A stretch of DNA of 64,000 nt from Tridacna crocea. Its lineage: Eukaryota > Mollusca > Bivalvia > Cardiida > Cardiidae. Location of the stretch: the NCBI GenBank assembly GCA_943736015.1, contig OX031065.1, positions 17,994,427-18,058,426 of the forward strand, in the 5' to 3' direction. The translations under genes were made by a program, and so were the position numbers. The notes under the pieces are model-generated. The model was not told the DNA's origin. It worked only from the letters and a program-made list of their open reading frames with translations, and searched no databases. Numbering within the stretch: position 1 is the stretch's first letter; each line of letters starts with the position of its first letter. This document shows, piece by piece, positions 35,436 to 64,000 of this stretch.

Positions 35436-36969
35436 TTAGCTCACCTGAGCACAACATGCTCAAGGGAAGCTTTTAGGATCACCCGTCGTCCGTTGTGAGT
35501 CGTCAACAATTCTTTAAACATCAACTCCTCCTAAACCACTGGGCCAATTTGGACCAAACTTGGCAGGAATGTTCCTTGGGAGGTCCTCTTAAAAATTTGT
35601 TCACAGAATTTGATTCCATCAAAAACTCTGGTTGTCATGGCAACCAAATGGAATTTTTTAGCAAATTCTTTAAAAATCTTCTCTGAAACCACTGGTCAGA
35701 TTTTGAAATAATTTCACAGAGATGTTCCTTGGATGACCCTTTTCAAAAATTATTCGTGAAATTTTGATTCGTCAAAAAATGTGGCTCTGGTGAATAGGGG
35801 CTACTTGCACTAACAGAAATGAAGGAATTCTTTAAAAATCTTCTTCTCTGAAAAGGCTGGACCCTTTTCAAAAAATTTTCGGGAAATTGTGATTGGTCAG
35901 GAAACATGGCTCTTGTGAATGGGGGCTACTTGGGAAATGAAGAAATTCTTAAAAATTCTTCTTCTCTGAAACGATTGGTTAGATTTTGAAAAAAATTTCA
36001 CAGAGTTGTTCCTTTGGTGACCCTTTTCAAAAACTGTACATATAATTTTAATTGGTCAAGAAACATAGGTCACTGAATGGGGGCTACTTGCACTATACAG
36101 AAATGAAGAAATTCTTAAAAATTCTTCTTCTCTGAAACTGCTTGTCAGATTTCGCAATAAGTTCTCAGGGATGTTCTTTGGGTGACCCTTTTCAAAAATT
36201 GTTTGCAAAATTTTGATTGGTCAAGAAACATGGCTCTGGTGAATGGGGGCTACTTGCACTATACAGAAATGAAGAAATTCTTGAAAATTCTTCTTCTCTG
36301 AAACGTCTAGACAGATTTTGAAATAATTTCACAGAGTTTTTCCTTGGGTGATCCTTTTCAAAATTGTTTGTGAAATTTTGATCCGTCAAGAAACATGGCT
36401 CTGGTGAATGGGGGCTACTTGCACTATATGGAAATGAAGAAATTCTTGAAAATTCTTCTTCTCTGAAACCCGTAGTCAGATTTTAAAATAATCTGACAGA
36501 GATGTTCCTTGGGTGACCCTTTTCATAAACTGCACATATCATTTTGATTGGTCTAGAAAAAAGGCTCTTGTGAATGGGGGCTACCTGCAGTATACGGACA
36601 TGATGAAACTCTTGAAAATTCTCTTTCTCTGAAACCCCTATTCAGATTTTAAAAGAAATTTTCCGAAATGTTCCTTGGGTGACCCTTTTCAAAACTTGTT
36701 CGTAAATTTTGATCCATCAAGAAACATGGCTCTCATGGATTGGGGCAACTTGCTCTTATACAGAAATGAAGAATTCTTAAAAATTCTTCTTTTTGAAACT
36801 GATGGTCAGATTTTGAAATGACTTTTACAGGACTGGTGACCTTTTGAAAATTGCTTGGCAAAATTATAAATTTGGTTCCAATGTTTCAATACCTCAAAAA
36901 AAAAAATAGGCTATGGTCATCTCAAAAATTCAGGTGAGCGATCCAGGGGCATCATGGCCCTCTTCTTTC
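35436..36969 (+). repeat. Hairpin-headed repeat, AGCTCACC type, 1.5 kb, in RBIS intron 2
   Basis: Head AGCTCACCTGAGCACAACATG, then CGTCCGTTG, a GTTGTCATGGCAACC segment, a 165-bp tandem array, and the 3' end GGGGCATCATGGCCCTCTTC. It stops about eight bases before the splice acceptor of RBIS exon 3. Confidence 0.7.
35660..36830 (+). repeat. Tandem array, about seven units of 165 bp
   Basis: GGGGGCTACTTGC recurs at roughly 35807, 35921, 36079, 36245, 36410, 36576 and 36741. The second spacing is short by about 50 bp, the rest are 158-166. Confidence 0.8.
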
Positions 36970-39467: not shown

Positions 39468-39870
39468 TCATTTCAACAAATTAAATGTCATCCAAATACT
39501 GAGATATGTCTTGGAATGGATAGAAAAGATTGTGAGAAAAGCAGAAAATGCTAATTACCAGCATTTTTCTCCTTTTTCCTCATTGTTTAAAAGCCTTCAT
39601 CCACTTAGTTAACCCTTTACCCCATAAGGTATTTCTATTGTATCTCTAATTGACCCTAAATAACAGCAAGGATGAACCCATTTCTTCTGTGTATATGATA
39701 CCTTTTGAAAGTGTAGAAAACATTGTGGCAAAAGGTGAAATTGCTCGTCACGAGCGATTTCACCTTTTGCCGCAATGTTTTCCAAAGGCTTCTACAAGCA
39801 ATGTGTTGAAATGAGTATCTATGGAGTAAAGGGTTAATAAAACAGGGGATTATGTGGTAAAAGTTAAATA
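39468..39870 (-). mobile_element. MITE A copy split by MITE B
   Basis: The MITE A ends at TTATGTGGTAAAAG; MITE B occupies 39613-39833. The paralogue at 60134-60340 has no MITE B. Confidence 0.7.
39613..39833 (+). mobile_element. MITE B, full length
   Basis: 221 bp; TTAA 39609-39612 and 39834-39837. The matching unoccupied site is GGGTTAATAAAAC at 60305-60317. Confidence 0.9.
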
Positions 39871-39949
39871 CCTGCTGGCACAGTTGATTGTTTTGATTGT
39901 ATGGTGTTTAGAGTCTGAGCCACTTTCAATATTATTTCTGTTACGTCGC

Positions 39950-40262
39950 AATGGCCAGTTCACCTATCCATGCTTTCCTGGAGTCTCTTTTACCAGTACT
40001 CTACACAGATTTCTTTCCATTGGCTGCTTTCCCACATAACCATCATCAGGACAATAGCCAGTGTTTGGAGCATAATGAGGCTAAACTAAAATGGCAGTAC
40101 AATAAATCACCTAACCATTTTAGTTCGACTGAATAATGATTCCTGTGGCAATGACTATCAGTAATCCCCTAAAAGAAATTGGTCGAGCCAGGGATCAAAC
40201 CCACGACCTTTTGTTCCCAAGTCCTGCATGCTACCGAATGAGCTACCAGGGCTTGGCTTCCC
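39950..40262 (-). mobile_element. tRNA-derived SINE
   Basis: On the minus strand a tRNA-like head shows an A-box-like TAGCTCATTCGGTAG and a B-box-like GGGTTTGATCC, followed by a body with GGGAAAGCAGCCAATGG. Paralogues: 60415-60670 and, more diverged, 52060-52310 and 62085-62350. Confidence 0.65.
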
Positions 40263-40267
40263 TTAGG

Positions 40268-40390
40268 TATAAAGCTTTTGAAAAAATTATGGGAAAAGAG
40301 AAAAATGCGGACCTACATGTTATACATATAACCATCCCTTGATCTATATTTGTCAGTTGCAAATACTGTCAACATATTTTGTTAGTTAGA
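40268..40390 (+). mobile_element. MITE A remnant
   Basis: AAGCTTTTGAAAAAATTATGG and GTCAGTTGCAAATACTG; shared with 60685-60835. Confidence 0.45.
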
Positions 40391-40474
40391 ATATTAGCTT
40401 CAGGTTCAAGAAAAGTGAAAATGTAAACACTGAGTTACTTTTTTAAACAGGAATACAAATTTACTGTGTTTTAA

Positions 40475-40696
40475 CCCTTTTCCAAACAATCCCTGGTTTT
40501 TATGTGCCTGAGATAGAAGCCTTTTGAAAACATTGTGGGAAAAGGAGAAAATGCTTGTAACCAGCATTTTCTTCTTTTCCCACAATGTTTTCTACCCGTC
40601 ACAAAACAAATTTCAATTTTTCAGTCACTTTTATTTTGTCATCTGCAAATGATTTCAATTTGGACCAGCCAAAAAATATTGTCCTTTGGTAAAGGG
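40475..40696 (+). mobile_element. MITE A, full length
   Basis: TTAA 40471-40474 and 40697-40700; a corresponding copy is at 61167-61386 in the duplicate. Confidence 0.85.
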
Positions 40697-40762
40697 TTAA
40701 TAATGATTTTTAAGCAATCACACACAGAGAACTTAATATTTTTGTTAAATACATGTATACAT

Positions 40763-41280
40763 CACACTGGAGAGACATTACGAACTTGTTCCTGGTCAAC
40801 GTTACTGTCCCTGTCAATTTTACGTACCCGTTCGAGTAAAAAACATAGCTGCGCCCACAAGATTACACAAGGTAAGCACAAAAACATAATTTTTTTAACA
40901 TGTTATTGAATAGATATGCAGTTGCAGGTTGTCGCACGGAATGTCTGGGATGTCAGTGCACGTTAATCTCTAGTTCTTTTGGTGGTTAATCGTTTGTTGA
41001 AGACGTTTAACCCATTACCACACAATCCCTACTTTTGACGCCCCTGAGAAAGAAGCCTTTTGAAAACACTGTAGGAAAAGGAGAAAATGCTGGTAACCAG
41101 CATTTTCTCCTTTTCCCACAGTGTTTTCTACCCTTCCCAGAACAAATTTCAATTTTTCAGTCAACCTTATTTTGTCGTCTGCAAATGCTTTCAATTTGGA
41201 CCGGTCTAAAATTTTCTCGTGTGGTAAAGAGTTAATCCAACAAAGTTTCGCCGGGGACTACGATTTCTGAAAAAACACTA
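40763..41280 (+). repeat. Left terminal inverted repeat of the 10.6-kb element
   Basis: The arm aligns with the reverse complement of 51060-51376. It is interrupted at 41007 by a full MITE A copy that is missing from the other arm. After the MITE, similarity resumes (TTAATCCAACAAA). The putative start codon present in the right arm is ATA here. Confidence 0.75.
41011..41231 (+). mobile_element. MITE A with a natural empty site in the window
   Basis: 221 bp between TTAA 41007-41010 and 41232-41235. The inverted paralogue reads GACGTTTAATCCAACA across 51137-51122 with a single TTAA and no MITE. Confidence 0.92.
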
Positions 41281-41792
41281 CTTGGAGTCTCCAAAAACCC
41301 TTGTAAAACATATACACTCAATATTCTGAAGTGTGTGCCGTGTCAGATGACCAATACAGTGATTATCCTCAGCACTATAAACCGATAAAAAATCAAATTG
41401 CAGTTATTCAGGGATATTTTGCCATTTTTAAATTACAACGTAAGATGCTCCTACAGTCAATACAACGATTCAGCTTCTGAGCTGAAAATACGGTAAGCGT
41501 ATGGGTTTGTGTTACAGTGAACAATTTTGTTATTAAGTTGGTCAAGATTCTATATTAATCATCGAAGTCACAGTCGTAGTGTAGTTAAATAAATACTTGA
41601 ATGGAAGTACAATTCTACAACACATTGAATTCTTCTTTCTATCAATAGGCCTAATGTTACTAGGCATGTTCAGGCGATCTCGGGTTCTCTGTTTCTATCC
41701 CCAATTTTATCAAGCTGGCAGAATCAGACACCCATCGTGAAGAGAGAGAGAGAGAGGGGTATCATTAGGTAGACTGGTCCTTGAACATACAG
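41238..41792. other. Internal unassigned part of the 10.6-kb element
   Basis: No repeat recognised beyond a (GA)n run at 41740-41755; ends at the THAP-like exon. Confidence 0.4.
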
Positions 41793-41900
41793 AAAATTGA
41801 CCTGAAGAGAAAAGTCTTGATCCACTTCCCCCTGCACGGAATGCACAAGCTGACCTGGGCAGATTCTTTCCGCAGATGCATTAAGCCCCCTTTCCACAGA
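41793..41900 (+). CDS. Candidate THAP zinc-finger exon in the 10.6-kb element
   Basis: A 108-bp segment lies between an acceptor-like ATACAG and a donor-like AGA|GTATCG, phase 0 at both ends. Its peptide includes VLIHFPLHG, then L-T-W and FRR followed by KPPFHR. That order (aromatic-F-P, L-xx-W, RR, KP) is the middle of the THAP DNA-binding domain before its C-x2-H pair. A minus-strand peptide in the right terminal repeat (51184-51234) begins MSRCAVDGC, matching the first C-x4-C of THAP. THAP fingers occur in P-type and Kolobok transposons and in host genes. The C-x2-H exon was not found, so this is partial or decayed. Confidence 0.42.
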
Positions 41901-42306
41901 GTATCGCTAATCAATATTTTTAAAAATATTAAATATCAATATATATTTAGATATTCAGATATTAATAGTTACCTTTAGGTGTGCCGCTTACAAGGCATAC
42001 GAATGGTTGGTCGTTGATGATCATTATTATTAAATCATATTCACAAAAACGAGTCTCTTGATGACGATATCGAAGATGGTATTTATAATAGTTATGGATC
42101 TTCTGCAAGATAGTTATGATAGATATCCTTTGCATGATACCGTCTGTCATCAAGTTCTTCATCTATATCACAGGAATTTGACATTCTATAACCAAAACAA
42201 ATGATCAAATATGAAAAAAATATCTCCCTATATAATGTAAACAGAAGGACTGCAACGCCTCGATTGTCTCATTCAAAATCCTAGAAATGCGCCCAACTGT
42301 CTCGTA
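41901..42306. other. Unassigned, 10.6-kb element interior
   Basis: AT-rich; no further THAP exon was found. Confidence 0.4.
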
Positions 42307-43557
42307 GGAATACGGGGGTCCTACTATTTTGCGGACGCTATTTGCGGACAATATAAACAAAGAAGGATTTTGCGGACAATATAGAACAAAGAGGGATTTT
42401 GCGGACGCATTGAATATAGAGTTAATTATTGCAATTAAGGCTGTAGTCTTGTTATTTAACCGCTGAAACGGGATTTTATACTGGTTGTTATTACTTTTTA
42501 CATATGAACTTATATATCGAATATTGCTTTTATAGAGTTGAATGTAATTTATGAAAATTAAGTACATTTTTATTAACCTTTATTTTTCGTATATTATTTG
42601 TAATAATTTCAGGGTTGTCCAGATCAAAAGCATTTGTACACGACAAAATAAAGGTGACAGAAAAATTGAAATTTGTGTTGTGAAGAGTAGAAAACATTTT
42701 GGAGAAATAATATTCTCCTTTTCACACAATATTAAATATTATTATATTTGAAGCATATTAAATCGGTTTATTTATAACTTAAATGTTTTATTTCAAATAA
42801 ATATTTTATTCAGGAAAAATTACCGAAACGTGTAAATGATAGAGTATGGTAGGAAACGTGCGGATGCTACATGGGGACATTATACACAAAGCGATTTGCG
42901 GACATTTTAGAGTAAAGAGGGATTTTGCGGATGTATTGAGTATATATAAAGTAGTGTTTTAGATGAAAAATATATGGGTTTTTTTTTTGGCGTAGTTTTC
43001 ACGTACTTATGTTTCATATATTTCCAGAAATTTTATGTCTGCTTTGAAAGTATTATATTTTTGAAACGCATGTAAAGTAGAACATATAGAATAATAAGAA
43101 TCGTGCGGATGAGCACTACGTGCAGACGCTATATATAAAGAAGGAATTTGCGGACAATATATAAAGTGAAAAGGGAAATTTTCAGAGTCTGTTTTAAAGT
43201 TTTGCATTATGGAAACAATAAGAAGATATCAAAGGTAGCAACTGAAACATACGTAAATTGTATGGTATGGTAGGAAACTGCGGATGCTACGTGCAGACAC
43301 TATACATAAAGAAGGAATTTGAGGACAATATAGAATATAGAAGGAAATTGCGGACGAATCCGCACCCTAAAGGCACTCGAGTCAAACACTCTACCTATGT
43401 GGCCTAGTCGTTGCGGACAATATACACAAAGAAGGATTTTGCTGACAATATACAGCATAGAGGGATTTTGCGGACGCATTGAATATAGAGTAATCAGTGT
43501 CGCATTTAAGGAGATAGACATGTTATTCGCACCTTTGCAAGGGTTTGATAGCCTTAA

Positions 43558-43777
43558 CCCTTTCCCTCACAATCCTGACTTTTAACGACTCAGAGACAAA
43601 AAGGTATGAAAATATTGTGGCAAAAGGAGAAAATGTTGGTAACCAGAATTTTCTCCTTGTCCCACAATGTTTTCTACCCTTTTCAAATCAAATTTCAATT
43701 TTTGTTTCACATTTATTTTGTTGTATGCAAATGCCTTGAACTTGGACTAGTCCAAAAATTTGTCTTTTGGTAAAGAA
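43558..43777 (+). mobile_element. MITE A nested in the 3.5-kb foldback element
   Basis: TTAA 43554-43557; right flank has decayed (GAAATAA). Confidence 0.75.
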
Positions 43778-44210
43778 ATAATTATTTACGTTGATAATCA
43801 CATTCAGTGTTGAATAACTAACTATCTATCATTTTACCATTTGAAATAACTTGTAGTAATAGGTTGTAATATTCGTAATCAGACTATATTTCAATGTAGA
43901 ATACTGAAGGAAATTTGGAAATTATTGAAAATAGAGTACATGTATTTCTTATATTAAAAAATACGAGTATTTGCTAGATCTATTTGCGGACAATTTAAAC
44001 ATAGAAGGAAATTGCGGACAATATATACCTTAGAGGGAAATTGCGGACGGATTGAATAAAGAGTATTTCTTTCAGTAAGCGTAATTATTATATTTTTCGC
44101 AATGTACTTTGGGACAGCATAAACATTGAAGAAAAAAGCAGACAATGTACCGCAGTAGACAGACAAATTGAATACTTTGATTTCCACAATACTGGAAATC
44201 CTTAAATATG

Positions 44211-44433
44211 CCCTTTACCACACTATCTCGACTTTTACCGACCCTGAGAAAAAAGCCTTTAGAAAACATTGTGGTGAAAGGAGAAAATCCTGTTCACCAG
44301 CGTTTGCTCCTTTTCCCTCAATGTTTTCAACTCTATGAAAGAAAAATTACACCGAATGAGCCACGCTGAAATTGTCGTATGCAAATGCTTTCAACTTGGA
44401 CAAAGCTAAAATTTTCGGTCGTCTGGTGAAGGG
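44211..44433 (+). mobile_element. MITE A nested in the 3.5-kb foldback element
   Basis: Right flank TTAG 44434-44437; core centre GTTCACC, one arm with CGTTTGC. Confidence 0.75.
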
Positions 44434-45861
44434 TTAGACCTCGACCACACAAAAGAAAAGTAGACTAGTCCACGGAAAATGCGGGTATATGAAATCATAA
44501 ACGAGTCTGCAATTTCCTTCTTTATGTATAGTGTCCGCAAGTAGCATCCGCATTTTTCTCCCATACATGTAACACTTTATAATTCACACGCGTTTACATT
44601 CATAGTATAGGTAGATCTATCTTCTTAATTTGTCCATAATGCAATGCTTTCAAAGATTTAAGGAAAAGCAGACTTACCTAAATTACTATGCTATAAACAT
44701 AAATCCAATGAAAACTACGCCGTAAATACATTTATTTTTCATGTAAAACATTTCTATAAATACTACTCTATAATCAATCTGTCCGCAAAGTCCCTCTATA
44801 TTCTATATTGTCCGCAAAGTCCCTCTGTATTCTATATTGTCCGCAATTTCCTTCTTTATGTATAGTGTCCGCAGGTAGCATCCGCATTTTTCTCCCATAT
44901 ATGTAACACGTTATTATTCACACGCGTTTACATTTACATAATATTTCGATGTTATAAACATAAATACAGGAAAACTAAAACGTTAATACATATATTTTTC
45001 AGGCAAAACATTACTTTATAAGTACAAATACTACTCTATAACCAATCCGTCCGCAAAGTCGCTCTATATTCTATATTGTCCGCAAATTCCCTATGTAATC
45101 TATATTGTCCGCAAATTCCTTCTTTATGTATAGTGTCCGCACGTAGCATTCACTTTTTTCTCCCATACTTTGTATTTCACACGCGTTTACATTTATAGTG
45201 TAGGTATCTTCTTAATTTGTCCATTATATAATGCCTTCAAATACTTAAGAAAAAGCAGAGTTACATAATATTTCGACGTTGTAAACATAAATCCGTGAAA
45301 ACTACGCCGAAAAATGCATATATTTTTCATCTGAAACACGACGTAATTAAATACTCAATGACTCCCCAAATCCCTCTTTACTCTATATTGTCCGCAAATT
45401 CCTTCTTTTTGTCCGCACGTAGCGTCGGCATGTTTCCTACCATACTTTATAAGTTTCACGTGTCCGTAATTTTTCTTCAATACCCTCGTTTTCAAAACAT
45501 CAAAGGATTCTATAAAAGTATAAATGTCACGATGAATTAGACTTATTACTTTTTATTACAAATAAAAAAACCACAAAACAATATAGATCTAATATTAATA
45601 ATACATGATTTTTACAAATTACATTCAACACCCTAAAATAAAAAAATGTCGTTATAAGTTCATATAAACAGTATAAGAAAATTAGTATAAAAACAACCCT
45701 TTCAGTGGTTAAAATAACAAGACCATAGCACTGATTGCAATAATTACACTATATTCAATGCGTCCGCAAAATCCCTCTTTGTTCTATATTGTCCGCAAAA
45801 TCCCTCTTTGTTTATATTGTCCGCAAATAGCGTCCGCAAAATAGTAGGACCCGGAATACGG

Positions 45862-46572
45862 AAGTTGAGCCTATATTTTTTGCAAATCTTTCTAAAACTA
45901 AAACAAAAGAAAAGTGAAGTTAGGTATTCTCGTATTTTGTGAATATTATTATTGATTGTATGCATTAGAATCTAATTTTAACATGGGTATTCGGGAATGC
46001 TACTCGATAATACATTGATAATATGCGACTTTATATCCGAGATATTGTGATTGAATCATCGGGACAGAGCCATAAATTAAACTGCTCATTGCAGGAAGTC
46101 CTTGTATCTATCACTTAGTGGTGGGCAGATGATCGACTATAGTCGAAAGTCATTTGGTTTTGGCTTCCGATTCCGATAATCGATTGAGAAAACCCGGAAT
46201 CGATTGTAGTCGATTCTTGAACTCGCTTGGTGCCTAAACTTGAATTCTTGGTTTTGTGACTATCATTAATCACAATCTTCGATTGAACAGTAGATAACAA
46301 ACATCAAAATCGGCCGGAAAAATGAGAAAGAAATTTTTGTCCATGCATTATTTGACAAAACTTGACAACTCGGCACGCTTCTCATTTGATCCCTTAGTCC
46401 GGGTTTTGAGACTTGGAAATTTGAAATGATCTGTCTTTGACAGTGGAAAATATCTGACGTATGAAATTATCGTCCAGAGCTTTATAAAATCTAGCTTGCG
46501 TACATCCGGCAGAAAATTGGGCTAAACACGATCAGTATAAAATGCGAAGGACACGCGGATGATAATGAGGCT
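45862..46572. other. Spacer between the two GGGTCCTACTA elements
   Basis: At 46119-46230 AGTGGTGGGCAGATGATCG is followed by repeated ATCGATT and GTCGATTC words, which could be one end of a hAT-like element; no partner end was found. Confidence 0.4.
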
Positions 46573-47084
46573 GTCGAGTCGGGTCCTACTAAAACACGCC
46601 GTACCAGAAAAATACGCCGTACCATACGCCGTACGGATTAAAACACGCCGTACCGAATGTGCATTATATTGTATGCTTTTTTTGGTATTTTTATATTGAA
46701 AAACATATAATCTAACCTAAGTAGCGATATTACTGCCCAATTTTTCACATTTGTCAAGTTATTGGTAATTATAGACATTCTTGCACGGGACCAACAGGTG
46801 CCCGTTACGCCGTACCAATTACATGAGCGCCGCACGAATTTTGAGGCACAAAACAACCAAATTAATAAGAAAGTATGGTACAATATGCAATTATCTACTT
46901 ATTTACGAGTTCACGTTGTTCTATTTCATGTCTTACAGAGGTTGTAGGTACATGTCAAGCATCCAGCAGATATTTACAGAAGGGAAATAACTCTGTGGTA
47001 CTGCTGAAGTTTATACAGAGAACTTTACGTTTCATTACTTTAATGAAACCTTGTGAAAAAATAAGAAATTGCTGGTCTTGAAAA

Positions 47085-47611
47085 ATAAGGTTATTGAAAA
47101 TATTTAAGGAAAAGAAGAAAATGTTGGTAACCCTCCCGTAACGAATTTCATTTGTGTCGTCAGCAAATTTAGACCATTTGAAAATTGTCGTTTGGTTAAG
47201 ATTAAATGGTTGTACATAGAACTTTTTGCCCTTAAAATGTTTCCATACTCAACGATGTGGATGTGGTTCTACCATGAGTCCTTTTGTTTTTAGTTTATTT
47301 CACTGTTATTATTTTGAACTAGATACTATTTTATGAATTTGTAATATTAAAACTCAGTGATATTTTTTCATTCATTAATTAATCCATTTTTACATTACTA
47401 GTTCTGGTGTTTTACAGTCAGTATTGTTCCCAAACAACAAATTTTAGACTCTTCCAAACTGAACTAGTTTGCAGACGACAATTTAGAACTTGGTGAAAAT
47501 GGTGGGAAGTTCTCCAAAAGGTTAGAACACAAGAGCAATTTCTTGTCTTCACAGTATTTTAAAAAGATTTATACTGCAGACACTTAAAAAAGGGGTTGTC
47601 TGGGAAAGGTT
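47085..47611. mobile_element. Two decayed MITE A copies inside the 2.9-kb element
   Basis: 47085-47204 (plus, GTCGTCAGCAAATTTAG) and 47422-47611 (minus, GAGCAATTTCTTG core variant). Confidence 0.5.
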
Positions 47612-48540
47612 CAGATGACCAAAATAGATAAGGCCAAAAGGAATTGAATACTGCTCTGAAGGCACTACATTACAAGCCTACGAACACATAAAAGAAGGCT
47701 TGAGGACAATGAATCGCCAGTACATTTTGCCGCTTCCAAGACCCTACTGAAGAAGGGCTCGCAAGTCATCATCACACTTACTGTGAAAAAATACCTCCAA
47801 GAAGGGATGAAGCTGTTCTGCTTAGCAGATGGAAACATTGCTGCATGTGGAAACAGATCGGGTATAATAAAGCCATGTTTCCTTAAATGTGTGACTGTCA
47901 GAAAATGGCCCTTCCAAACACCAACGGCCCTTGCTAAGGCCACCAATTTCACAGAAATCTATCTTTGCGAAAAATTGTCTTAAAAACGGCCCTTCTCAGT
48001 GCCAACACATTGAAGTAAACAGGAAAAGACGTTACCCTCATCATCCCCTTTCTCAACAAATAAAGATGACGCGAAAATGGGTTCTTTCTCAGGTATTTCC
48101 TGGGGCCAGAAAATTCAGGGCTCTTGCCTAGTACTGGTAAAAACAGGAAGTACATGAATATGTGAGCTTCCGCAGTGAAATAATGTACTTAAAGTGGCGT
48201 AAATCACCATAAAATCAATCAATCAACATTTGACAGTCAAAATTTCTTTACATTGTTTATTGGTAAAAAAAACACCGGGACAAAAGAAAAAGAACACATG
48301 TTTGTGAAACACTAATGCCCCCGTTTATGGAGACTGACATGCGGACAAGGGTAAAGCTATACGGCCCAAATCTTCCGATGCCGGGACATAAAAAATAGAA
48401 TAGATCTATCTCAATATTAATTTACAGTTTATTGATTGCAAGAGTTTTGATGACAATTTTCGGAAGATATCATTCAAAACGGCACATGTAAAGGTTGAGA
48501 AAGTGTTACTTAGGGCACACAAATTGGATGTATCTAAGTT
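47612..48540. other. Unassigned interior of the 2.9-kb element
   Basis: Slightly higher GC; no frame is open over a convincing length. AATCAATCAATCAAC at about 48210 looks like a retroposon tail. Confidence 0.4.
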
Positions 48541-48542
48541 CA

Positions 48543-48676
48543 CCTATCCTTATTTTTCCATACCGTGTTTTCTACCCTTTTGGAGAACTCTCCGCCATTT
48601 TCATCAACTTTAAAATTATTGTCGTCTGCAATCTGTTTCAGTTTGGATGGGTCTAAAATTTGACGTATGGATAAAA
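48543..48676 (+). mobile_element. MITE A right half
   Basis: From TTTTTCCATACCGTG to TGACGTATGGATAAAAG. Confidence 0.5.
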
Positions 48677-48781
48677 GTCAATTTTTTCACAGTGCGCAAC
48701 GATACAGCATGGAAAAACCAGCACTAAATGGAAAAAATGATTAAAGAATGAAAAAATACAGTCCACGTTCTACAATCACTG

Positions 48782-48960
48782 ACTTTTTACCAAACGACAA
48801 AATTGTAGACTGTTCTAAATTTGCAGACGACACAATTGAAATTTGTTCTTGGAGTGTAGAAAACATTACATGAAAAGGAGAAAATACTGGTCACTAGTAT
48901 TTTGTCCTTTTCCCAAGATATTTTCAAAAGCCTTATTTTTCCGGATCAGAAAAGATGAGA
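48782..48960 (-). mobile_element. MITE A, diverged
   Basis: TTTTTACCAAACGACAAAAT start; core GGAGAAAATACTGGTCACTAG stays symmetrical. Confidence 0.6.
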
Positions 48961-49469
48961 AACGGTCATAAGCAATTTCTCGTTTTTCCACAAGGTTTCA
49001 TTGAACTGATGTTTAACGTAAAGTTCTCTGTACAAACTTCAGAGTTATTTCCCTTCTGTAAACATCTGCTGGATAAATGCTTGACATGTAGCTGCAACCT
49101 CTGTAAGACATGAAATAGAACAACATGAACTCGTAAATAAGTAGATAATTGCATATAGTACCATACATTCTTATTAATTTAGTTGTTTTGTGCCTCAAAA
49201 TTCGTACGGCGCTCATGTAATTGGTACGGCGTAACGGGCACCTGTTGGTCCCGTGCAAGAATGTCTAAAATTGGCAAATAACTTGACAAATATGAAAAAT
49301 TGGCATGAAATATCGCTAGTTAGGTTAGATTATATGTTTTTCAATATAAAAATACCAAAAAAAGCATTCAATATAATTCACATTTTGGTACGGCGTGTTT
49401 TAATCCGTACGGCGTATGGTACGGCGTATTTTTCTGGTACGGCGTGTTTTAGTATGACCGGTCGAGTCA

Positions 49470-50086
49470 TTTATGACAGAGTAACAAAGGTGTTATTCCT
49501 CTTATCTAGTGTAAAGTGACAGATTTTTTAATTTACTTGCTATTTAAACTGACTGGATGATGTCAAATCATGTAGCAATACCTCTCCAAAAATTAATTGT
49601 CACGAAAAAAAAAATCGCCAAAAAAGCGTTAAAACCCATGACAATACAATGAGCAGCTTGGCCTCGTCCGATCAGGGATACTTCAAACTATCTTCTCATC
49701 AATAATAATGGATTTATACAGTGAATTTATACAAATATCTGAATAAAGCAATAAGTGAAAGCTAAATTCCGTTCATGAGTGAAAAAAAAAATGTTGTTTT
49801 ATGAAATGAAAATATAGATCTATAGCAGACAGGTTTGGAGGGGGGGGGTTGAAGTCGTTGTCTGCAAATGCTTTAAATATGTCTGATTGTTTTTTTGTAT
49901 ATGGAAAAATGAACAGTATAGATTATTCACGTGCTAAAACAATAAAACAGAATAAAGTGCTTTACTTGAAATCTTTATAACGTCTCATCTGAAGATTTAA
50001 ATGTCTCATTACTTTTGAAAATGTCCCATTGGTTTTCAAAGACAGGAGCCATTGTCTCATTGAAATAAATTCTCTACCGATCACTG
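49470..50086. other. Unassigned, 10.6-kb element interior
   Basis: A G-run (49840-49850) and a MITE A scrap (GTTGTCTGCAAATGC, 49857-49890) only. Confidence 0.4.
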
Positions 50087-50552
50087 TTAGCCTAGCGATA
50101 GAAAACACAAAAATGTACCTGCGACATTCGGCGATTCCTCAGTAGACACCTTTTAACCGGAAATATCCGTCACATATTACATTTTTTTTTTACAATTTCT
50201 ATCCATCGAGGAGGCCATTCGCTGACGTCACAGGATTCCCAGGAAGGGCCAGGAAGTGTATTTTCGGATTATGTATTAGAGTCAAATATCTTTTCTTTAA
50301 AAGATAATATGGTCAAATACTTTTGTTAGTTACTTGTATTAAGTATCATGTGATGTCCATAAATATATCTTAAAAACGAAAAAGAAAAAAAAAATAGTAA
50401 TACGTAATCCGAAAATACGTTTCCTGGCTCTTCCCATGAAGTCAGCGAATGGCCTCCTCGATGAATAGAAATTGTCTCCGGTTAAAAGGTGTCTACTGAG
50501 GAATCGCCGAATGTCGCAGGTACATTTTTGTGTTGTCTATCGCTAGGCTAAA
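50087..50552. mobile_element. Short-spaced inverted repeat, 466 bp
   Basis: Arms of about 155-185 bp begin TTAGCCTAGCGATAGA and are unusually CpG-containing for the region (TGCGACATTCGGCGATTCC; CATCGAGGAGGCC). The left arm has a 30-base AT insert. The left arm also holds TGACGTCA, which is TGACTTCA in the right arm. No target duplication is clear, so it may be a MITE or a local inverted duplication. Confidence 0.5.
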
Positions 50553-51059
50553 GGAAATTATGATCAATGTTTGTTTCGTGGGTGATTTTGGGTGGGAAAG
50601 GCTGTCTTGTGCTGTCGCTTGCAATCGAGACGTTGCATTCCTTGTGTTTATATTATATAGGGGAGATTTTTTTCCATATTTTATCATTTATTTTGGTTAT
50701 AGAATGTCAAATTCCCTTGTCTATATCATGGCATTTCATTTCAAAAGCATCAAAAGGATAATAAACCTGACGGAAAGAAAACCTGAAAGATAGACAAGTA
50801 GACAGTTATGCATATTGATTAAAAAAAGGGAAAAAAATCATTAAACTCGTACACAATCACATTATGATATCGTTCTCTGTTTCAATTCAGGAACTGGATC
50901 GTTTTGTGTTCTGGAGCGTGGTGCGTTGCCTACAAAAATTGAGAGAAAAGTGCTTTTTAATGGATGTCTTATAGTTTTTTGTTTTCAACTGTGGTGAATA
51001 AAGCATATGTGATTCACTTGACACAACACAAACTTCAGATTATTGTGTTTGTATGTTTA
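50553..51059. other. Unassigned, 10.6-kb element interior
   Basis: No repeat or convincing exon seen. Confidence 0.4.
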
Positions 51060-51376
51060 AAAAAGCTTTTTGCTGACTTCCGGGTGTTGATTATTCAGAA
51101 ATCGCAGTCGCTGACGGAAGTTTGTTGGATTAAACGTCTTTAACAAATAACAAACCACCAAAGGAACAATACAGAAATATGCACTAACATCCCAGAAATT
51201 CCGTGCGACAACCATCTACAGCACATCTACTCATCTGGTTGTTATAGAAGAATGTTTTTCTGTTTACCTTGTGTAATCTTGTGGGCGCAGCCATGTTTTT
51301 TACTCGAACGGGTACGTAAAATTGACAGGGACAGTAACGTTGACCAGGAACAAGTTCGTAAGGTCTCTCCAGTGTG
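51060..51376 (-). repeat. Right terminal inverted repeat of the 10.6-kb element
   Basis: This is the mirror copy without the MITE. It keeps ATGGCTGCGCCC before a donor-like AAG|GTAAAC and the MSRCAVDGC peptide. The unoccupied TTAA at 51130-51133 corresponds to the MITE-bearing TTAA of the left arm. Confidence 0.75.
51184..51234 (-). CDS. THAP-like first peptide in right terminal repeat
   Basis: A 16-codon minus-strand ORF begins MSRCAVDGCRTE and stops at TAG. The C-x4-C spacing and the position right after Met resemble the start of a THAP finger. The mirror copy in the left terminal repeat (about 40915-40960) has lost the Met and first Cys (reads YAVAGCRTE). A splice donor joining it to the 41793 exon could not be established, and that exon is in fact on the other strand arm. 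Confidence 0.25.
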   Translation of the reverse strand: MSRCAVDGCRTEFLGC

Positions 51377-51392
51377 TACATATGCACAGAAC

Positions 51393-51638
51393 TGCATTGT
51401 GAAATAAAATGAGGTTTATTTTATGAATTTCTGTCTTTCTATATTGTCATTCCTTTTAACCTTACCACATAATATGCATTGTGAAATAAAATGAGGTTTA
51501 TTTTATGAATTTCTGTCTTTCTATATTGTCATTCCTTTTAACCTTACCACATAATCTGCATTGTGAAATAAAATGAGGTTTATTTTATGAATTTCTGTCT
51601 TTCTATATTGTCATTCCTTTTAACCTTGCCACACAATC
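51393..51638 (+). repeat. 82-bp tandem triplication
   Basis: TGCATTGTGAAATAAAATG starts at 51393, 51475 and 51557. Copy B (61455 onward) has a single unit, so the triplication is private to copy A and adjoins the 10.6-kb insertion. Confidence 0.85.
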
Positions 51639-51719
51639 CTGAGTTTTAATAATCCTGATTAGAGAAGGCTTTTTAAAACACTGTAGGCTTTCTAAAACAT
51701 TGTAGGAAAAGAAGAAAAT

Positions 51720-51929
51720 GTTTTACCACTCAATAACGACTTTTAACACCCTTGAGGAAGAAGCCTTCTAAAAGCATTGTGGGAAAAGGATAAAATACTG
51801 GTAACCAGCTTTTTCACTTTTTTCCCACAGTGTGTTCTATCCTATCAGGATCAGATTTCATTATTTGTGTCACATATAAATTGTTATATGCAAATACTTT
51901 CAATTTGGACCAGGTTGTCTGATAAAGAG
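51720..51929 (+). mobile_element. MITE A, shared with the duplicate
   Basis: Counterpart 61670-61890; right TTAA 51930-51933. Confidence 0.7.
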
Positions 51930-51936
51930 TTAAAAC

Positions 51937-52058
51937 ATTGAAGGTTTTTGAAAACATTGTAGGAAAAGTAGAAAATGCAGGTGACCAGAAAAGAAGCCTT
52001 CTGAGAAAGAGACGACTTTTAACAACATCGTGGGAAAAGATGAAAATGCCTGTAGCTA
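51937..52058 (+). repeat. Partial tandem of MITE A half-hairpins
   Basis: GAAAACATTGTAGGAAAAG-GAAAATGCAGGTGACCAG and a second shortened unit; the duplicate has three units. Confidence 0.55.
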
Positions 52059-52059
52059 A

Positions 52060-52310
52060 GCCAGTAACAACATTTGAGGGAGCATGTTGCTGGTACAAAA
52101 TTCCAGCTTACTAATTTCTTCTCAGAGAATTTATGATAGTCATTGCAACAGGATACATTCCTATCTTGCTTTTGAATAACCTGTGTATGATGGCCAAGAT
52201 GATTATGTGGGAAAGCAGCCAATGACTTAGGAACACTATAGTGAGAGGTGCTGGAAAAAAAAAACTGGGAGAGCATGTATAGGTGAAGTGGTTGCAGCTG
52301 TGATATCATT
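52060..52310 (+). mobile_element. tRNA-derived SINE, diverged
   Basis: CTGTAGCTAAGCCAGTAAC head, GGGAAAGCAGCCAATG body; counterpart of 62085-62350. Confidence 0.5.
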
Positions 52311-52331
52311 GACAGTATTTTATTGTATTAA

Positions 52332-52545
52332 CCCTTTACCCCATAAGGCATTTCTATGGTATCTCTAATTGACCCTAAATAACAGCAATGATGAAGCCCT
52401 TTCTTATGTGTATATGACACCTTTTGATAGTGTAGAAAACATTGTGGCAAAAGGTGAAATTGCTCGTCACGAGCAATTTCACCTTTTGCCACAATGTTTT
52501 CCAAAGTCTCCTTCAAGCAATGCGTAGAAATGAGTATCTATGGAG
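52332..52545 (+). mobile_element. MITE B with a SINE in its right end
   Basis: TTAA 52328-52331; perfect core. The right TIR is cut at GGAGTAAAGTG by the SINE. Confidence 0.8.
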
Positions 52546-52553
52546 TAAAGTGT

Positions 52554-52763
52554 GGGGTCCGTGGCCATGATGTAGAGTGTTGGCCTCATAACCTAAGGGT
52601 CCTGAGTTCCATACCTGGGAGTGGGTGTCAACTTAGGGATTTTTCATTTGCCCACACTTTCGGTGCGAGTACTGGTGTAATTCCCAGGAAGCAGAATCGA
52701 AAGAGATTAGTATAAGTTGTAAGAACTTGTTTCTCAATCGATGTAAAATAAATATGTTTAAAC
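52554..52763 (+). mobile_element. tRNA-like SINE with 8-bp target duplication
   Basis: TAAAGTGT lies at 52546-52553 and 52764-52771. The head GGGGTCCGTGGCCATGATG has GTTGGCCTCATAACC and a B-box-like GAGTTCCATACC. The tail contains CCCAGGAAGCAGAATCG. Confidence 0.65.
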
Positions 52764-52789
52764 TAAAGTGTTACCTCTTAGGCTGTTAA

Positions 52790-52973
52790 CCCTTTACTCC
52801 ATAGATGCTTATTTCTACACATTACTTGTAGGAGCCTTTGGAAAACATTGTAGCAATTTCACCTTTTGCCACAATGTTTTCTATGCTATCAAAATGTGTC
52901 ATATACAAATAAGAAACAGCTTCATCCTTGCTGTTATTTAGGGTTAATTAGAAATGCCTTATGGGGTAAAGGG
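52790..52973 (-). mobile_element. MITE B with empty site in the duplicate
   Basis: 184 bp; TTAA 52786-52789 and 52974-52977. The duplicate reads GGCTGTTAAGTGCAAC at 62383-62398. One hairpin arm is deleted (ACATTGTAGCAATTTCACC). Confidence 0.9.
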
Positions 52974-53002
52974 TTAAGTGCAACTCAAGGACCTTTTACA
53001 GA

Positions 53003-53062
53003 CAGTGTTGATCAAGATCAGATTGCACAGAACATATAGTCTGATCTTTGATCTACATTATC
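53003..53062. repeat. GATC-type hairpin repeat
   Basis: CAGTGTTGATCAAGATCAG and CTGATCTTTGATCTACATT pair. Counterpart at 62418-62474; another at 54281-54339. Confidence 0.5.
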
Positions 53063-53284
53063 CATTAAGGGGATGTCTAATCCTGAAAAAAATACCCTTG
53101 AAATAGCCAAATTTTGGGTTTTGCTATCAGTTTGAAGGTTTTATCTCGCCGGTTACATGGTAGGATAAGGGTAAAATTCTTAACCAACAAATCTACCAAA
53201 CTATAAAAGTTTTGTAGTCTTTGGTTTTAAATAGCATCTGCAGATGCAGATGGGATCTACTGTTTGATCAAAAGTTCCTCAAAA

Positions 53285-53422
53285 GAATGACTTTGCAAAG
53301 GATATGAAATCTTTGTGGCAGAAGGAAAATTGCTTGTAACCAGCAGTTTTCCTCAAGATTCCCAACATGTTTTCCAAAAGCCTAAGTAGTGTCCCTAAAT
53401 ATCCGGACTGTCACGTGAAGGG
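53285..53422 (-). mobile_element. Decayed TTAA MITE
   Basis: GTGGCAGAAGG-AAAATTGC and the mirror GCAGTTTTCC; TTAA 53423-53426; duplicate at 62685-62816. Confidence 0.5.
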
Positions 53423-53429
53423 TTAAATT

Positions 53430-54897
53430 GCATGAGAATTATTCGATAAAAAATGTATAACAAATATAATCATATACAAGCATACTATTGATTTAAAGCT
53501 ACGGCGTAGTCTACATAATTATGTGTAAATATGATTTTCCTTGATTCACATATGACGAAAAAAATGGATAAATAGTCATTTTTCTCAATTAGATACAGTT
53601 TATTTACGATATCGAATTATATCCTTTACCAATCGACCCAATAAATGAAGCCTGTAGACCAGTAATGCAAAACTATCGCAGTTGGGATTTTTTTTTTTTT
53701 TTAAATGTGGTCTAGGGGAGAAAACTCGTACTGCCTAAGAGTAACAGAAAACCAAGAGTAATCTCCCTTATAATGATCTGACCCCCCCCCCTTTCATCAT
53801 TTCTCCTAGACGCTTGACGGATCAAAGTACTTAACACAACACTGGGGGGAAAAATGACATGCGTGTGTCGGTTTTAATCTGTTTTTAATGAAGATTTCAA
53901 TTAATTTTAACAAGAGAGCTTATTGACATTGATTTCGATACATAACGCTAGAATCTAATTTTTTAAGAAAGAACATTTCCTGCTTTATTTCTTGAAATTC
54001 GAATGGAATCATCGAGAAAGGTTTGAATCCTGGAAAATCGCCATTTACAAAGTTATGAGATTTGCCGACGGCATTCAGTATCATACTCCATAGAATGTAC
54101 GATCTGATTCTCTGTTTACATAGTCTGCTTGTTATGTTGAACCTATGTAGTGTTAAAATCTCTACAAGGTAGATTTAATGGACTGTAGAGTCTATATATT
54201 TACACCTTCGAAAGAGGTCCACATGTAGGCGCGAAAAAACTTCAAAGCGCCATATACAATAATAGTTGTCTTTGCAACCCGTGTAGATTATGATTAGATT
54301 GCACAGAACGTTCAGTCTGGTCTTGATCTACACTGTCCGCTTTGCTTAGACATTCTTCACAAAAGCAATTAATCTTGATAATGTAACTGTTTGGGAGAAG
54401 ATTCTAGACTGAACATTTCTGTTGGGTTTATTTGACGCCCTAGATAGTTGTCAGTATAGGGGACAGCTTTAGGGTTCAATTTTGAATCTACCTCATATTT
54501 CTACAAACCAGAAGTTTTGTTTTGAACTAGTTTATAAGATAACGTTTCAATATTAAGCGATATCTGTCGACATTGTCCGTAAATGAAAACATATTTTTGT
54601 TGGTAAGTGTGCGTTTATTTATCATTGTGATATCATATACTCTCAAATTTCATTTATTAATACATGTATCTGTTACCTCAGAGATATGTTGCCAAATGAT
54701 GCATTGTTATTCAAGTGAAATCTTACCTTAATTCCAAATTCAAATATTGGCGTTATAAATTGTCATGAGATAAAAAAAATGTCGTTTTAGAATAATTAAA
54801 ATTAACAATTTTACCATATGAACTGATTCAAAGTCGTTACAGCTACATGAAAAATTATCGCTTGTCAAACCGATCGTTTCTACAGATGTTACGGTGT
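53430..54897. other. Low-repeat stretch, partly inside the duplication
   Basis: T and C homopolymer runs (53690, 53782) and a GATC hairpin only. No exon is convincing. Confidence 0.4.
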
Positions 54898-59998: not shown

Positions 59999-60340
59999 CT
60001 CTTTACAATGAAAAAAAAAAATAAAGGATGGTCAAAACTTAAAGCATTTGCAGAAGACGAATCACGTGGTGCACAGAGTAGAAAAGTTTTCTTTGAAAGG
60101 ATAGAAAACATTGTGGGAAAATGAGAGAATACTGCCTTTTAGACCAGTACATATTGAAATCATTTGCAGACAACAAATTAAATGTCAACCAAATGTTGAG
60201 ATATGTCTTGGAATGGATAGAAAACATTGTGAGAAAAGCAGAAAATGCTAATTACCAGTGTTTCTCTCCCTTTTCCTCATTATTTCCTAAAGCCTCCATC
60301 CTCAGGGTTAATAAAACAGGGGATTATGTGGTAAAAGTTT
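59999..60340 (-). mobile_element. Two MITE A copies fused in tandem
   Basis: The left half of one (to about 60133) runs into a second copy at TTTTAGACCAGTAC; the second matches 39468-39870 without the MITE B. Confidence 0.6.
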
Positions 60341-60414
60341 AATACCTGCTAGTACAATTGATTGTTTTGATTGTATGGTGTTTAGAGCCACTTTCAGTAT
60401 TATTTCAGTTATGT

Positions 60415-60670
60415 CACAGTGGCCAGTTCACCTATTCATGCTTTCCTGGAGTCTCTTTTGCAAGTACTCCACACAGTTTTGTTTTCTAAACCACTGGCTG
60501 CTTTCCCGCATAACCATTGTCAGGACAATAGCCAGTGTTGGGAGAATGATGATTCCTATGGCAATGGCTATCAGCAATCCCCTAAAAGAAATTGGTCGAG
60601 CCAGGGATCGAGCCCACGACCTTTTGTTTCCCAAGTCCTGCGTGCTAGCAAATGAGCTACCAGAGCTTGG
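60415..60670 (-). mobile_element. tRNA-derived SINE, copy B
   Basis: A-box-like TAGCTCATTTGCTAGC and B-box-like GGGCTCGATCC on the minus strand. Confidence 0.6.
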
Positions 60671-60891
60671 CTTCCCTTAGGTATAAAGCTTTTGAAAAGA
60701 TTATTGGAAAAGAGGAAAATGTAGATGACCTACATGTTGTTTTTCCCCAAGTTTTTTTTTTAACAACTCAAAACAGTAACCATCCCATGACCTATATTTG
60801 TCAGTTGCAAATGCTTTCAGTATTGTTTGTTAAAGTATTAGCTTCAGGTTCAGGAAATAGTGAGAACGTAAACACTGATTTAAATTTTTAA

Positions 60892-61112
60892 ATCTTTACC
60901 AAACTACATAATTTTATACTTGTCCAAGTTGAAAGCTTTTGCAGACAACAAAATAAATGTAACTCAAAAATTGAAATTTGTTTCCAGCAGGGTATCAAAC
61001 ATTGTGGGAAAAGGAGAAAATACTGGTTATCAGCATTTTCTCCTTTTCCAATAACATTTTAAAACTGCTTCTTTCACAGGGTTGTTAAAAGTTGGGATTT
61101 TGTGGTAAAGGT
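60892..61112 (-). mobile_element. MITE A private to copy B
   Basis: 221 bp; TTAA 60888-60891 and 61113-61116. Copy A has the unoccupied TTTTTTAAACAGG at 40440. Confidence 0.88.
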
Positions 61113-61166
61113 TTAAACAGGAATATGAATTTACTGACTTCAGTTTGTTTTAATGATATTTCTTAA

Positions 61167-61386
61167 CCCTTTACTGTACAATCCCTGTTTTTTATGACCC
61201 TGAGAGAGAAGCCTTTTGAAAACATTGTGGGAAAAGGAGAAAATGCTGGTAACCAGCATTTTCTCCTTTTCCCACAATGTTTTCTACCCTGCTGGAAACA
61301 AATTTCAAATTTCCAGTTAATTTTATATTGTTGTCTGCAAGTGCTTTCAATTTGGACCAGTCTAAAATTTTGTTGTTGATAAAGAG
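61167..61386 (+). mobile_element. MITE A
   Basis: TTAA 61163-61166; perfect core; right flank TTTA. Counterpart of 40475-40696. Confidence 0.85.
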
Positions 61387-61526
61387 TTTAGTAATTACAC
61401 CCAGAGAACTGAATATTTTTGTAAAATACATGTATATATACATGTATATGCATAGAAGTGCATTGTTAAATAAATAAGGTTCGTTTTATGAATTTCTATC
61501 TTTTTATCTTGTCATTCCTTTTACCC

Positions 61527-61660
61527 CATTCCACACAATCCTGAGTTTTAACACCCCAAGGTAGAGGAGGCTTTTGAAAACACTGCAGGTATTCTAAAAC
61601 ATTGTAGGAAAAGAAAAAAAATGTTGGGTACCAGACAGGATGCCTCTGAAGAAAAAGAAG
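61527..61660 (+). mobile_element. MITE A left half with duplicated core word
   Basis: AAAACACTGCAGG and AAAACATTGTAGG in succession; same arrangement at 51635-51720. Confidence 0.5.
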
Positions 61661-61669
61661 GCTTTTTAA

Positions 61670-61890
61670 CCCTTTACCACTCAATAACTACTTTTAACAC
61701 CCTTGAGGAAGAAGCCTTTTGAAAGCACTGTGGGAAAAGGAGAAAATGCTAGTAACCAGCATTTTCTGTTTTTCCCACAGTGTTTTCTACCCTATCAGGA
61801 TCAAATTTCATTATTTGAGTCGCATTTAAATTGTTGTCTGCAAATACTTTCAAGTTGGGCAAGGTCAATACTTTGTCATCTGGTAAAGAG
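61670..61890 (+). mobile_element. MITE A
   Basis: TTAA 61666-61669; right flank TTGA. Confidence 0.8.
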
Positions 61891-61903
61891 TTGAAATATT
61901 GAA

Positions 61904-62090
61904 GGTTTTTGAAAACATTTTTGGGAAAAGAAGAAAATGCTGGTGACCAGAAGAGAAGTCTTTCAGATAAAGAGATGGCTTTTGAAAACATTGTTGGAAA
62001 AAAAGAAAATGCTGGTGACCAGAAAAGGAGAATTCTTCTGAGAAATCGACAGCTTTTGAAAACATTGTGGGAAAAGATGAAAATGCTCTG
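61904..62090 (+). repeat. Three tandem MITE A half-hairpins, about 73 bp each
   Basis: TTTTGAAAACATT recurs at about 61907, 61980 and 62056. The first two units end GCTGGTGACCAGAA; the third runs into the SINE head. Confidence 0.7.
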
Positions 62091-62350
62091 TAGCTCAGCT
62101 GGTAACAACATTTGAGCAAGCATGTTGCTGGTACATGTACAAAATTCCAGCTTGCCAATTTCTGTCAGAGAATTTATGATAGTCATTGCAACTGGATACA
62201 TTCCTATCTTGCTTCTGAATAACCTGTGTATGATGCCCTAGGTGGATATGTGGGAAAGCAGCCAATGGATTGGGAAGAACATAGTGAGAAGTGCTGAAAA
62301 AGAAATGCTGGGAAAGCACAGATAGGTGAAGTGGCTGCAGCTGTGATATC
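62085..62350 (+). mobile_element. tRNA-derived SINE, diverged
   Basis: Head CTGTAGCTCAGCTGGTAACA is a clear tRNA A-box; the B-box has decayed. Confidence 0.55.
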
Positions 62351-62417
62351 ATTAAAAAAATTTGAATAGTATCAACTCTTAGGCTGTTAAGTGCAACTCA
62401 AGGACCTTTTGCAAACA

Positions 62418-62474
62418 TTGTTGATCAAGATCAGACTGCACAGAACATTTAGTCTGATCTTTCATCTACACTGT
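62418..62474. repeat. GATC-type hairpin repeat, copy B
   Basis: GATCAAGATCAGACTGCACA and AGTCTGATCTTTCATCTACA pair. Confidence 0.5.
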
Positions 62475-63460
62475 CCTATAAGGGGATGTCTGATCCTGAA
62501 AAAAAAACGTTTGAAATAGTCAAATTTTGTTTTTTACTATCAGTTTGAAGTTTTTATCTGTTATTTAGTAGGATAAGGGTTGAATTTTAAAGCAACAAAT
62601 CTGCCAAACTATAAAAGTTCTGTACTATTAAGTATTAATAATATTTACAGATAGTGTTTGATCAAAAGTTTCTCAAAAGAAGGACTTTGCGAAGGATATG
62701 AAATTATTGTGGCAAAAGGAAAATAGCATGCAACCAGCAGTTTTCCTCAAGATTCTCATTATGTTTTCCAAAAGCCTAGACAGTGTCCCTAATTATCGGG
62801 ACTGTCTTGTAAAGGGTTAAATCGCACGATAATTATTTAATTAAAATGTATAAGAAAGAGTCATATACAAGCATACTGTTTGACAAATTTTTTCATTGAT
62901 TTAAATAAGCCACTGTGTAGTCTACATAATTATGTGCAAATATGATTTTCCATGATTCATATATGACGTAAAAAATAGATAAATAGCCATTTTTTTTTCA
63001 ATTAGATACAGTTTAATTACAGTATCGAATTATATCTTTTATCAATCAACGCAATAAATGATGCCCATAGACTCGCACTGCAAAACTATCGCAGCTGGGA
63101 TCTTTTAAAAAAAAATTATGGTCTAGGGGAGAAAACTCGTACTGTCTAAGAGTAAGAGTAAAGCAAGAGTAGTCTCCCTTATAATGATCCCGCCCCCCCC
63201 CCTTCATCATTTCTCCCAGACGCTTGACGGATCAAAGTACTAAATACAACACTAGGAAAAGGGTGACATGCATGTAACGTTTTTAATCTGTTTCTGATGA
63301 AAATTTCATTTAATTTTAACAAAAGAGTGTCATTAATATTGATTTTAATACAAAACACTAAAATCTAAGTTTTAAATAAGATTATTTCCTGCTTTTTCTA
63401 CTTGAAATTCGAATGAGATCACCGAGAAAGGTTTGAATCTTTGAAAATCGCCATTTGCAA

Positions 63461-63817
63461 CATTATCTCCCGCTAGATGGCATTCTATAAATACTCATCT
63501 ATCTAATTTGGGCATCCTGGGTACAGAACCGAACCACTTTCCTACGCGACAACCGTTACTTTGAATTTCAAACTACATGTAAAATAAAGGTTTACACAAT
63601 AAAACGCTACCTCGTGCAATTCACTCAGTTATGATCAGCAGTTTAGATAAATCTGAAGCTAAAGAAGGTCTTATTTCTCCTCAAATGTATTGATAAAAGC
63701 TATTTTCAAGATTGCTACTTCATAGAGTGTAATATTACAGTCTGCCCGCTTTCGGGGCTAGTGATGCGTCATATAAGACAGGTCGAATCTTCGAAGAATA
63801 TGACATGGCGCAGAAAA
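63461..63817. mobile_element. 357-bp insertion with 12-bp target duplication
   Basis: CGCCATTTGCAA lies at 63449-63460 and 63818-63829. The duplicated locus has a single CGCCATTTACAA at 54039-54050. The insert starts CATTATCTCCCGCTAGATGG and is related to 20925-20990 and 21827-21900. Long duplications like this are typical of retroposed or unusual insertions; the class is unknown. Confidence 0.6.
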
Positions 63818-64000
63818 CGCCATTTGCAAAGGTATGAGGTTTGCGGACGGCATAGTTTAAAATGACGCTTCACAGAATGTACGATCTGATTCCGAGTCTA
63901 CACAGTTTACTTCTTTCGTAAACTTTTCTGTGCAAAATAAAAAAAAAACCTCAAATTCCAGCGGACGGCTATCAATACAATCTATTGAAACACACAAAGA

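Follow-up and report, generated by a model that had tools for sequence, protein, structure and literature searches.

The locus analysed here lies in the bivalve Tridacna crocea, in a 64,000-nucleotide stretch of forward-strand DNA (assembly GCA_943736015.1, contig OX031065.1, positions 17,994,427 to 18,058,426) that is referred to as the window and to which all coordinates apply. One arm (copy A) of a segmental duplication in this window carries an insertion of 10,614 bp at positions 40763-51376, with inverted ends and the pentanucleotide TACAT on either side. This insertion, termed the outer element, was interpreted as a degenerate, non-autonomous cut-and-paste DNA transposon with long terminal inverted repeats (TIRs) that has been lengthened by nested insertions, and this reading was given a probability of roughly 0.85. 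The target-site duplication (TSD) and the corresponding site in the other arm (copy B) are as follows.

40758..40762, unstranded: left TSD TACAT, a copy of the right-hand TACAT
51377..51381, unstranded: right TSD TACAT, a copy of the left-hand TACAT
61418..61462, plus strand: uninterrupted homologous site in copy B, from the alignment to the joined flanks of copy A

The insertion and its empty site

The terminal sequence CACACTGGAGAGAC forms both ends of the outer element on opposite strands. The inverted arms at 40763-40887 and 51252-51376 are 125 nt long and 97% complementary, and a second inverted stretch at 40907-41014 and 51126-51233 is 80% complementary. These data uphold the preliminary description of a 10,614-bp TIR element within copy A, flanked on both sides by TACAT. 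When the window was scanned for 12-bp inverted termini starting with CAC and bounded by an exact 5-bp TSD, 1, 3, and 8 pairs were found at up to 1, 2, and 3 mismatches, respectively, compared to 0, 1, and 4 pairs in the reversed window that served as the control; the outer element supplied the one mismatch-free pair in the window. The 14-mer CACACTGGAGAGAC was located at just two window sites with up to two mismatches allowed, namely, these ends, and hence no further copy lies in the window. A 24-base piece of the terminus gave 0 matches to viral contigs and 0 to prokaryotic contigs, a search of little bearing on an animal transposon.

The joined flanks of copy A, once re-aligned, were colinear with copy B near 61.4 kb, as had been proposed, and the disturbance at the junction was an 8-bp indel inside a TACATGTATA run. 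Leftward of the junction, at a distance of 40-80 bp, there are additional small gaps, and the register is lost to the right of about 51450, at tandem copies in copy A. Within the short stretches compared, TACAT was counted twice in copy B and three times in the filled copy (two to the left of the element and one to the right), which is the expectation if one TACAT was duplicated at insertion.

The possibility that the ends do not belong to one insertion, and that A+T-rich repetitive DNA instead yielded inverted repeats by chance or a pair of separate solo termini, was deemed scarcely credible. The site does lie in the TACATGTATA run, where 5-bp matches are commoner (12 of 3540 local flank pairs, versus a chance of 0.0019 for two random places in the window), but the agreement of the arms over 125 bp, the colinearity with an empty site, and the placement of the TSD exactly at the ends all speak for a single event.

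The duplication was traced through nine in-order pieces of 39474-40762 and 51380-54133 that match 60171-63915 at approximately 76-90%, these pieces having been selected from a listing that also held many matches between copies of a miniature inverted-repeat transposable element (MITE). The duplication extends past this ubiquitous MITE and well beyond the junction. Since copy B is uninterrupted and the homology continues far beyond the junction, it was concluded that the insertion postdates the duplication and affected a single arm. As the alignments show, the segmental duplication came first, one insertion with a 5-bp duplication followed in one of its arms, and the nested insertions came later.

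The window is rich in repeats and eukaryotic in appearance. To the right of the insertion, at 51395-51620, copy A has three tandem copies of a unit starting GCATTGTGAAATAAAATGAGG, of which copy B has one. The TTAA-flanked MITE, which is 228 bp long and contains the long internal palindrome AGAAAATGCTGGTAACCAGCATTTTCT, is extremely abundant throughout the window, its 217 BLAST matches merging into 111 stretches that total 18,257 bp, or 28.5% of the window. A self-similar tandem array at 35663-36865 was strong in the self-comparison of the window.

Nested insertions and size

The size first given, 10.6 kb, holds for the interruption and not for the element itself, as two thirds of the interval is nested and the outer element's own DNA, 3,494 bp spread over five pieces, comes to no more than about 3.5 kb. 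This own-DNA figure is possibly too high, because a good deal of 41346-42172 lacks an obvious counterpart in the right terminus. The nested DNA, about 7.1 kb, comprises at least four elements.

41007..41235, unstranded: hairpin MITE bordered by TTAA, within the left terminus; at the corresponding point of the right terminus TTAA occurs once (empty site)
42316..45852, unstranded: E1, Mutator-like, 3537 bp, with ends GGGTCCTACTA, long TIRs, and an exact 9-bp TSD GGAATACGG on both sides
46581..49460, unstranded: E2, Mutator-like, about 2880 bp, with ends GGGTCCTACTA / CGGTCATACTA and an 8-bp TSD GTCGAGTC on both sides
50087..50551, unstranded: E3, an inverted-repeat element of about 465 bp, with 75-bp arms that are 99% complementary

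The Mutator-like assignments were based on TSDs of 8-9 bp combined with long TIRs. For E1, the first 100 bp of the arms are identical at 99 of 100 positions, while the arms of E2 agree at 90% over about 490 bp (gapped) and at 81 of the first 100 positions without gaps. Moving each E2 boundary one base outward gives a 6-bp TSD, and these were the boundaries preferred by the boundary scan. Empty sites were available for the outer element and the TTAA MITE, and E1 and E2 rest on their TSDs and TIRs. A Mutator-type transposase was not seen in the 5 open reading frame (ORF) pieces scanned from the 35 of at least 55 amino acids in E1 and E2. The later nested insertions tripled the outer element's length, which illustrates that what looks like a giant element in repeat-rich DNA may be a small one into which others have inserted.

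The interior of E1 contains many GCGGACAATAT-type repeats in both orientations. E1 and E2 have GGGTCCTACTA ends in common, and their interiors look different. Near 46119, a hAT-like end was noticed by eye, which may be one more remnant, in which case the own-DNA figure would again be too high.

That the outer element is itself Mutator-like, with an unusually short TSD, was considered improbable. The usual Mutator TSD is 8-9 bp, as in the nested E1 and E2, which places the 5-bp TSD outside the usual range, and the outer ends share nothing with the GGGTCCTACTA of E1 and E2. In its favor, Mutator elements typically have long TIRs in which promoters and transposase binding sites are located (PMC3310237), and TSDs of 4-10 bp, a range that includes 5 bp, are given for IS256 and MuDR jointly (PMC10045372).

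Termini and presumed first exon

The termini of the outer element and the exon-like segments within them were assigned as follows.

40763..42266, plus strand: left terminus, the last homologous block being 42173-42266; interrupted by the TTAA MITE
50622..51376, minus strand: right terminus, about 755 bp, 50622 being the inner limit of its recurring homology to the left terminus
51268..51294, minus strand: presumed first exon ATGGCTGCGCCCACAAGATTACACAAG (MAAPTRLHK), predicted from sequence, inward-facing and followed by donor-like GTAAAC
40845..40871, plus strand: left counterpart of the presumed first exon, with ATA for ATG, followed by donor-like GTAAGC

Termini of 300+ bp had been reported, and they are indeed long; that length was too short, given the extent of the right terminus. 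Counted from the ends, the arms are homologous at 85% over about 250 bp and at 76% over the block of about 127 bp that follows, and a further block of 95 bp at 90% reaches 42266 and 50622. An inward-facing start codon with a donor-like segment had also been described for both ends; the donor-like segment is present at each, and the ATG at the right end only. Identity between the arms was 112/115 in the outer 115 bp, versus 189/235 in the next part up to 41345 (Fisher P = 5e-6, with the split at 115 bp chosen post hoc, the alignment having already been seen). The drop in identity falls just inward of the donor-like AAG-GTAA.

This arrangement raises the question of an undescribed superfamily with long TIRs, 5-bp TSDs, and a first exon mirrored at both ends, which was regarded as unlikely. 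The exon-bearing 115 bp is strongly conserved between the arms, and none of the families compared, as they appear in the portions of the literature cited, fits the ends, the TSD, and the TIR length jointly. Such a superfamily would, however, be represented by a single degraded copy, and known superfamilies often give rise to long-TIR derivatives that are non-autonomous.

Coding content

ORF pieces of at least 35 amino acids from the outer element's own DNA were compared to Pfam; the scan covered 50 of the 51 pieces, the piece left out being 50550-50687 on the minus strand. None reached its curated cutoff, and no match to a transposase was obtained. The weak matches, to Aph-1 (E = 0.0028), LST1 (0.0044), DUF6198 (0.006), DUF6957 (0.011), Peptidase_C4 (0.012), and others with E > 0.02, were taken as chance. 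Eight longer ORFs of the window, mostly outside the element, likewise gave nothing above the cutoff. In the right terminus, MSRCAVDGCRTE looked by eye like a THAP-type start; it was rejected, as Pfam found nothing in that ORF. Because the ORF pieces showed neither a Pfam match above the cutoff nor a transposase match, the copy was taken as non-autonomous. A RAG1-like transposase was not found among the 50 pieces of this degraded copy.

Within E2, the adjacent ORF pieces 47628-47747 and 47660-47980 (both plus strand, in different frames) each match PF01885, the family of Tpt1/KptA tRNA 2'-phosphotransferases. The two matches are colinear and nearly contiguous in the profile, covering positions 106-128 (E = 0.26) and 127-172 (E = 0.17). 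Each match alone is far under the curated cutoff, and chance matches with E values of 0.003-0.01 arise among the outer element's own pieces, so that the weight rests on the two joined matches to one family, the piece matching 106-128 having been picked by eye once the 127-172 match was found. The best PDB sequence match of the piece covering 127-172 was human tRNA 2'-phosphotransferase 1 (TRPT1; E = 0.1), while the piece covering 106-128 had no PDB match at E values up to 10. E2 may carry a broken Tpt1-like gene fragment, which would make it a possible animal Pack-MULE. In the reference genomes of a survey covering 100 animals, 370 Pack-TIRs were found and no Pack-MULE, and the words mollusc and oyster are absent from its main text (PMC8277862). 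Given this result, an animal Mutator-like element with a captured gene fragment would be of interest.

Affiliation of the outer element

In most of the CMCT superfamilies (EnSpm, Mirage, Chapaev, Transib, and relatives), the ends are of the form 5'-CA..TG-3' and the TSDs measure 2-5 bp (PMC12730594). The TIRs of protostome RAG-like (RAGL) elements start with CAC, and their TSD is invariably 5 bp (PMC7204232); together, CAC ends and a 5-bp TSD direct to Transib and RAG-like elements (PMC7204232, PMC8289069). The outer element has CACACTG at both ends and a TSD of 5 bp. A Transib/RAG-like (CMCT) affiliation was tentatively favored because CAC...GTG ends and 5-bp duplications co-occur in that group, and it is offered as a lead.

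Several observations weigh against the reading presented here. The outer end agrees with the protostome RAGL consensus CACTWMCAAACKTYKBB (PMC7204232) at 8 of 17 positions, where 6.5 would be expected, and 993 of the 1342 17-mers in the window that start with CAC score as high or higher. The heptamer of the recombination signal sequence (RSS) is matched at 6 of 7 positions, which is unremarkable, as 191 of 1344 CAC heptamers in the window equal it, and following this control the RSS-like heptamer was dropped as positive evidence; the ProtoRAG heptamer is matched at 5 of 7. The TSD is A+T-rich, and those of ProtoRAG, Transib, and RAG lean to G+C (PMC8289069). One Transib element was found in a survey of molluscs (PMC10294476). 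Furthermore, no transposase of any kind was seen in the scanned ORF pieces of the outer element, the element is known from one copy, and gene conversion between the arms could give the same pattern in the outer 115 bp. Because the bases past CAC give no support, Transib/RAG-like membership is not claimed, and the exact family is not settled.

Membership in the hAT5 group of the hAT transposons, again as a non-autonomous copy, was judged unlikely. hAT ends are usually C/TAGNG, whereas the outer ends are CACACTGG, i.e., CACAC, and the ORF pieces scanned showed no transposase. The 5-bp TSD does agree with this group, of which it is the defining feature according to the title of a Repbase report cited in PMC12730594. 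A Ginger2/TDD element was thought very improbable, as Ginger ends start with TGT and those of the outer element with CAC. For this family, the TSDs of 4 or 5 bp (PMC10045372) are compatible with the data. KolobokP, in which bivalves are rich, was rejected because its anatomy differs, with long direct repeats at the termini that are themselves bounded by short TIRs; its solo repeats have 3-4- or 4-5-bp TSDs (PMC9587614). IS481EU was likewise rejected, being reported from parabasalids only; its ends are of the TG..CA type, and its TSDs measure about 4, 15, or 25 bp, apart from a copy with 5 bp (PMC10045372). For foldback elements, long TIRs, and 5-bp target sites in molluscs, the literature search yielded a single paper, which concerns Tetris of Drosophila virilis.

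Proposed mechanism and significance

It is proposed that a DDE/D transposase, supplied in trans, would bind the outer 115 bp or so of both ends, excise the element, and insert it at a target cut with a 5-bp stagger. Combined in the outer 115 bp would be a binding site, a promoter, a 5' leader, a short first exon, and an inward-facing splice donor, and an autonomous relative could be transcribed from one end or both. MuDR, which is transcribed from its ends, offers a parallel for such inward-facing promoters. The weak step is the type of transposase, for which the Transib/RAG-like (CMCT) type would be the leading, if doubtful, candidate. The presence of an unnamed long-TIR, 5-bp-TSD lineage whose two termini each have their own promoter, start codon, and first splice donor was considered distinctly unlikely; if it exists, such termini would drive transcription of any interior trapped between them from either side and supply it with a first exon. 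A RAG-like form of this lineage, with its mirrored and exon-bearing ends, would be related to the ancestor of the V(D)J recombinase.

With its filled and empty sites separated by about 10 kb, the locus is a clean natural record of an insertion that gives the exact ends and the staggered cut, and the approximately 115 bp of well-defined terminus can be used to seek autonomous members of the family. Should the ends prove to be RAG-like, they would be relevant to how V(D)J recombination arose; otherwise the element is an ordinary dead transposon among many.

Comparison with known systems

The outer element has a 5-bp TSD in common with the hAT5 group, from which it differs in its terminal bases. 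The same applies to Ginger2/TDD, where a 4- or 5-bp TSD is the common feature and the terminal bases again differ. With MuDR and Mutator-like elements it has in common long TIRs with presumed inward promoters, while the TSD length and the terminal bases are different. From Transib and RAG-like elements it departs in the lack of an A-rich block at positions 8-10, in its A+T-rich TSD, in end homology that extends over hundreds of base pairs and includes an exon-like segment common to both ends, and in the absence of RAG1L or RAG2L sequence from the ORF pieces scanned. The likeness to Transib and to the RAG-like elements (RAGL and ProtoRAG) consists of the CAC...GTG ends and the 5-bp TSD, and the two convergent genes described for RAGL (PMC7204232) would suit the inward-facing starts at both ends of the outer element.

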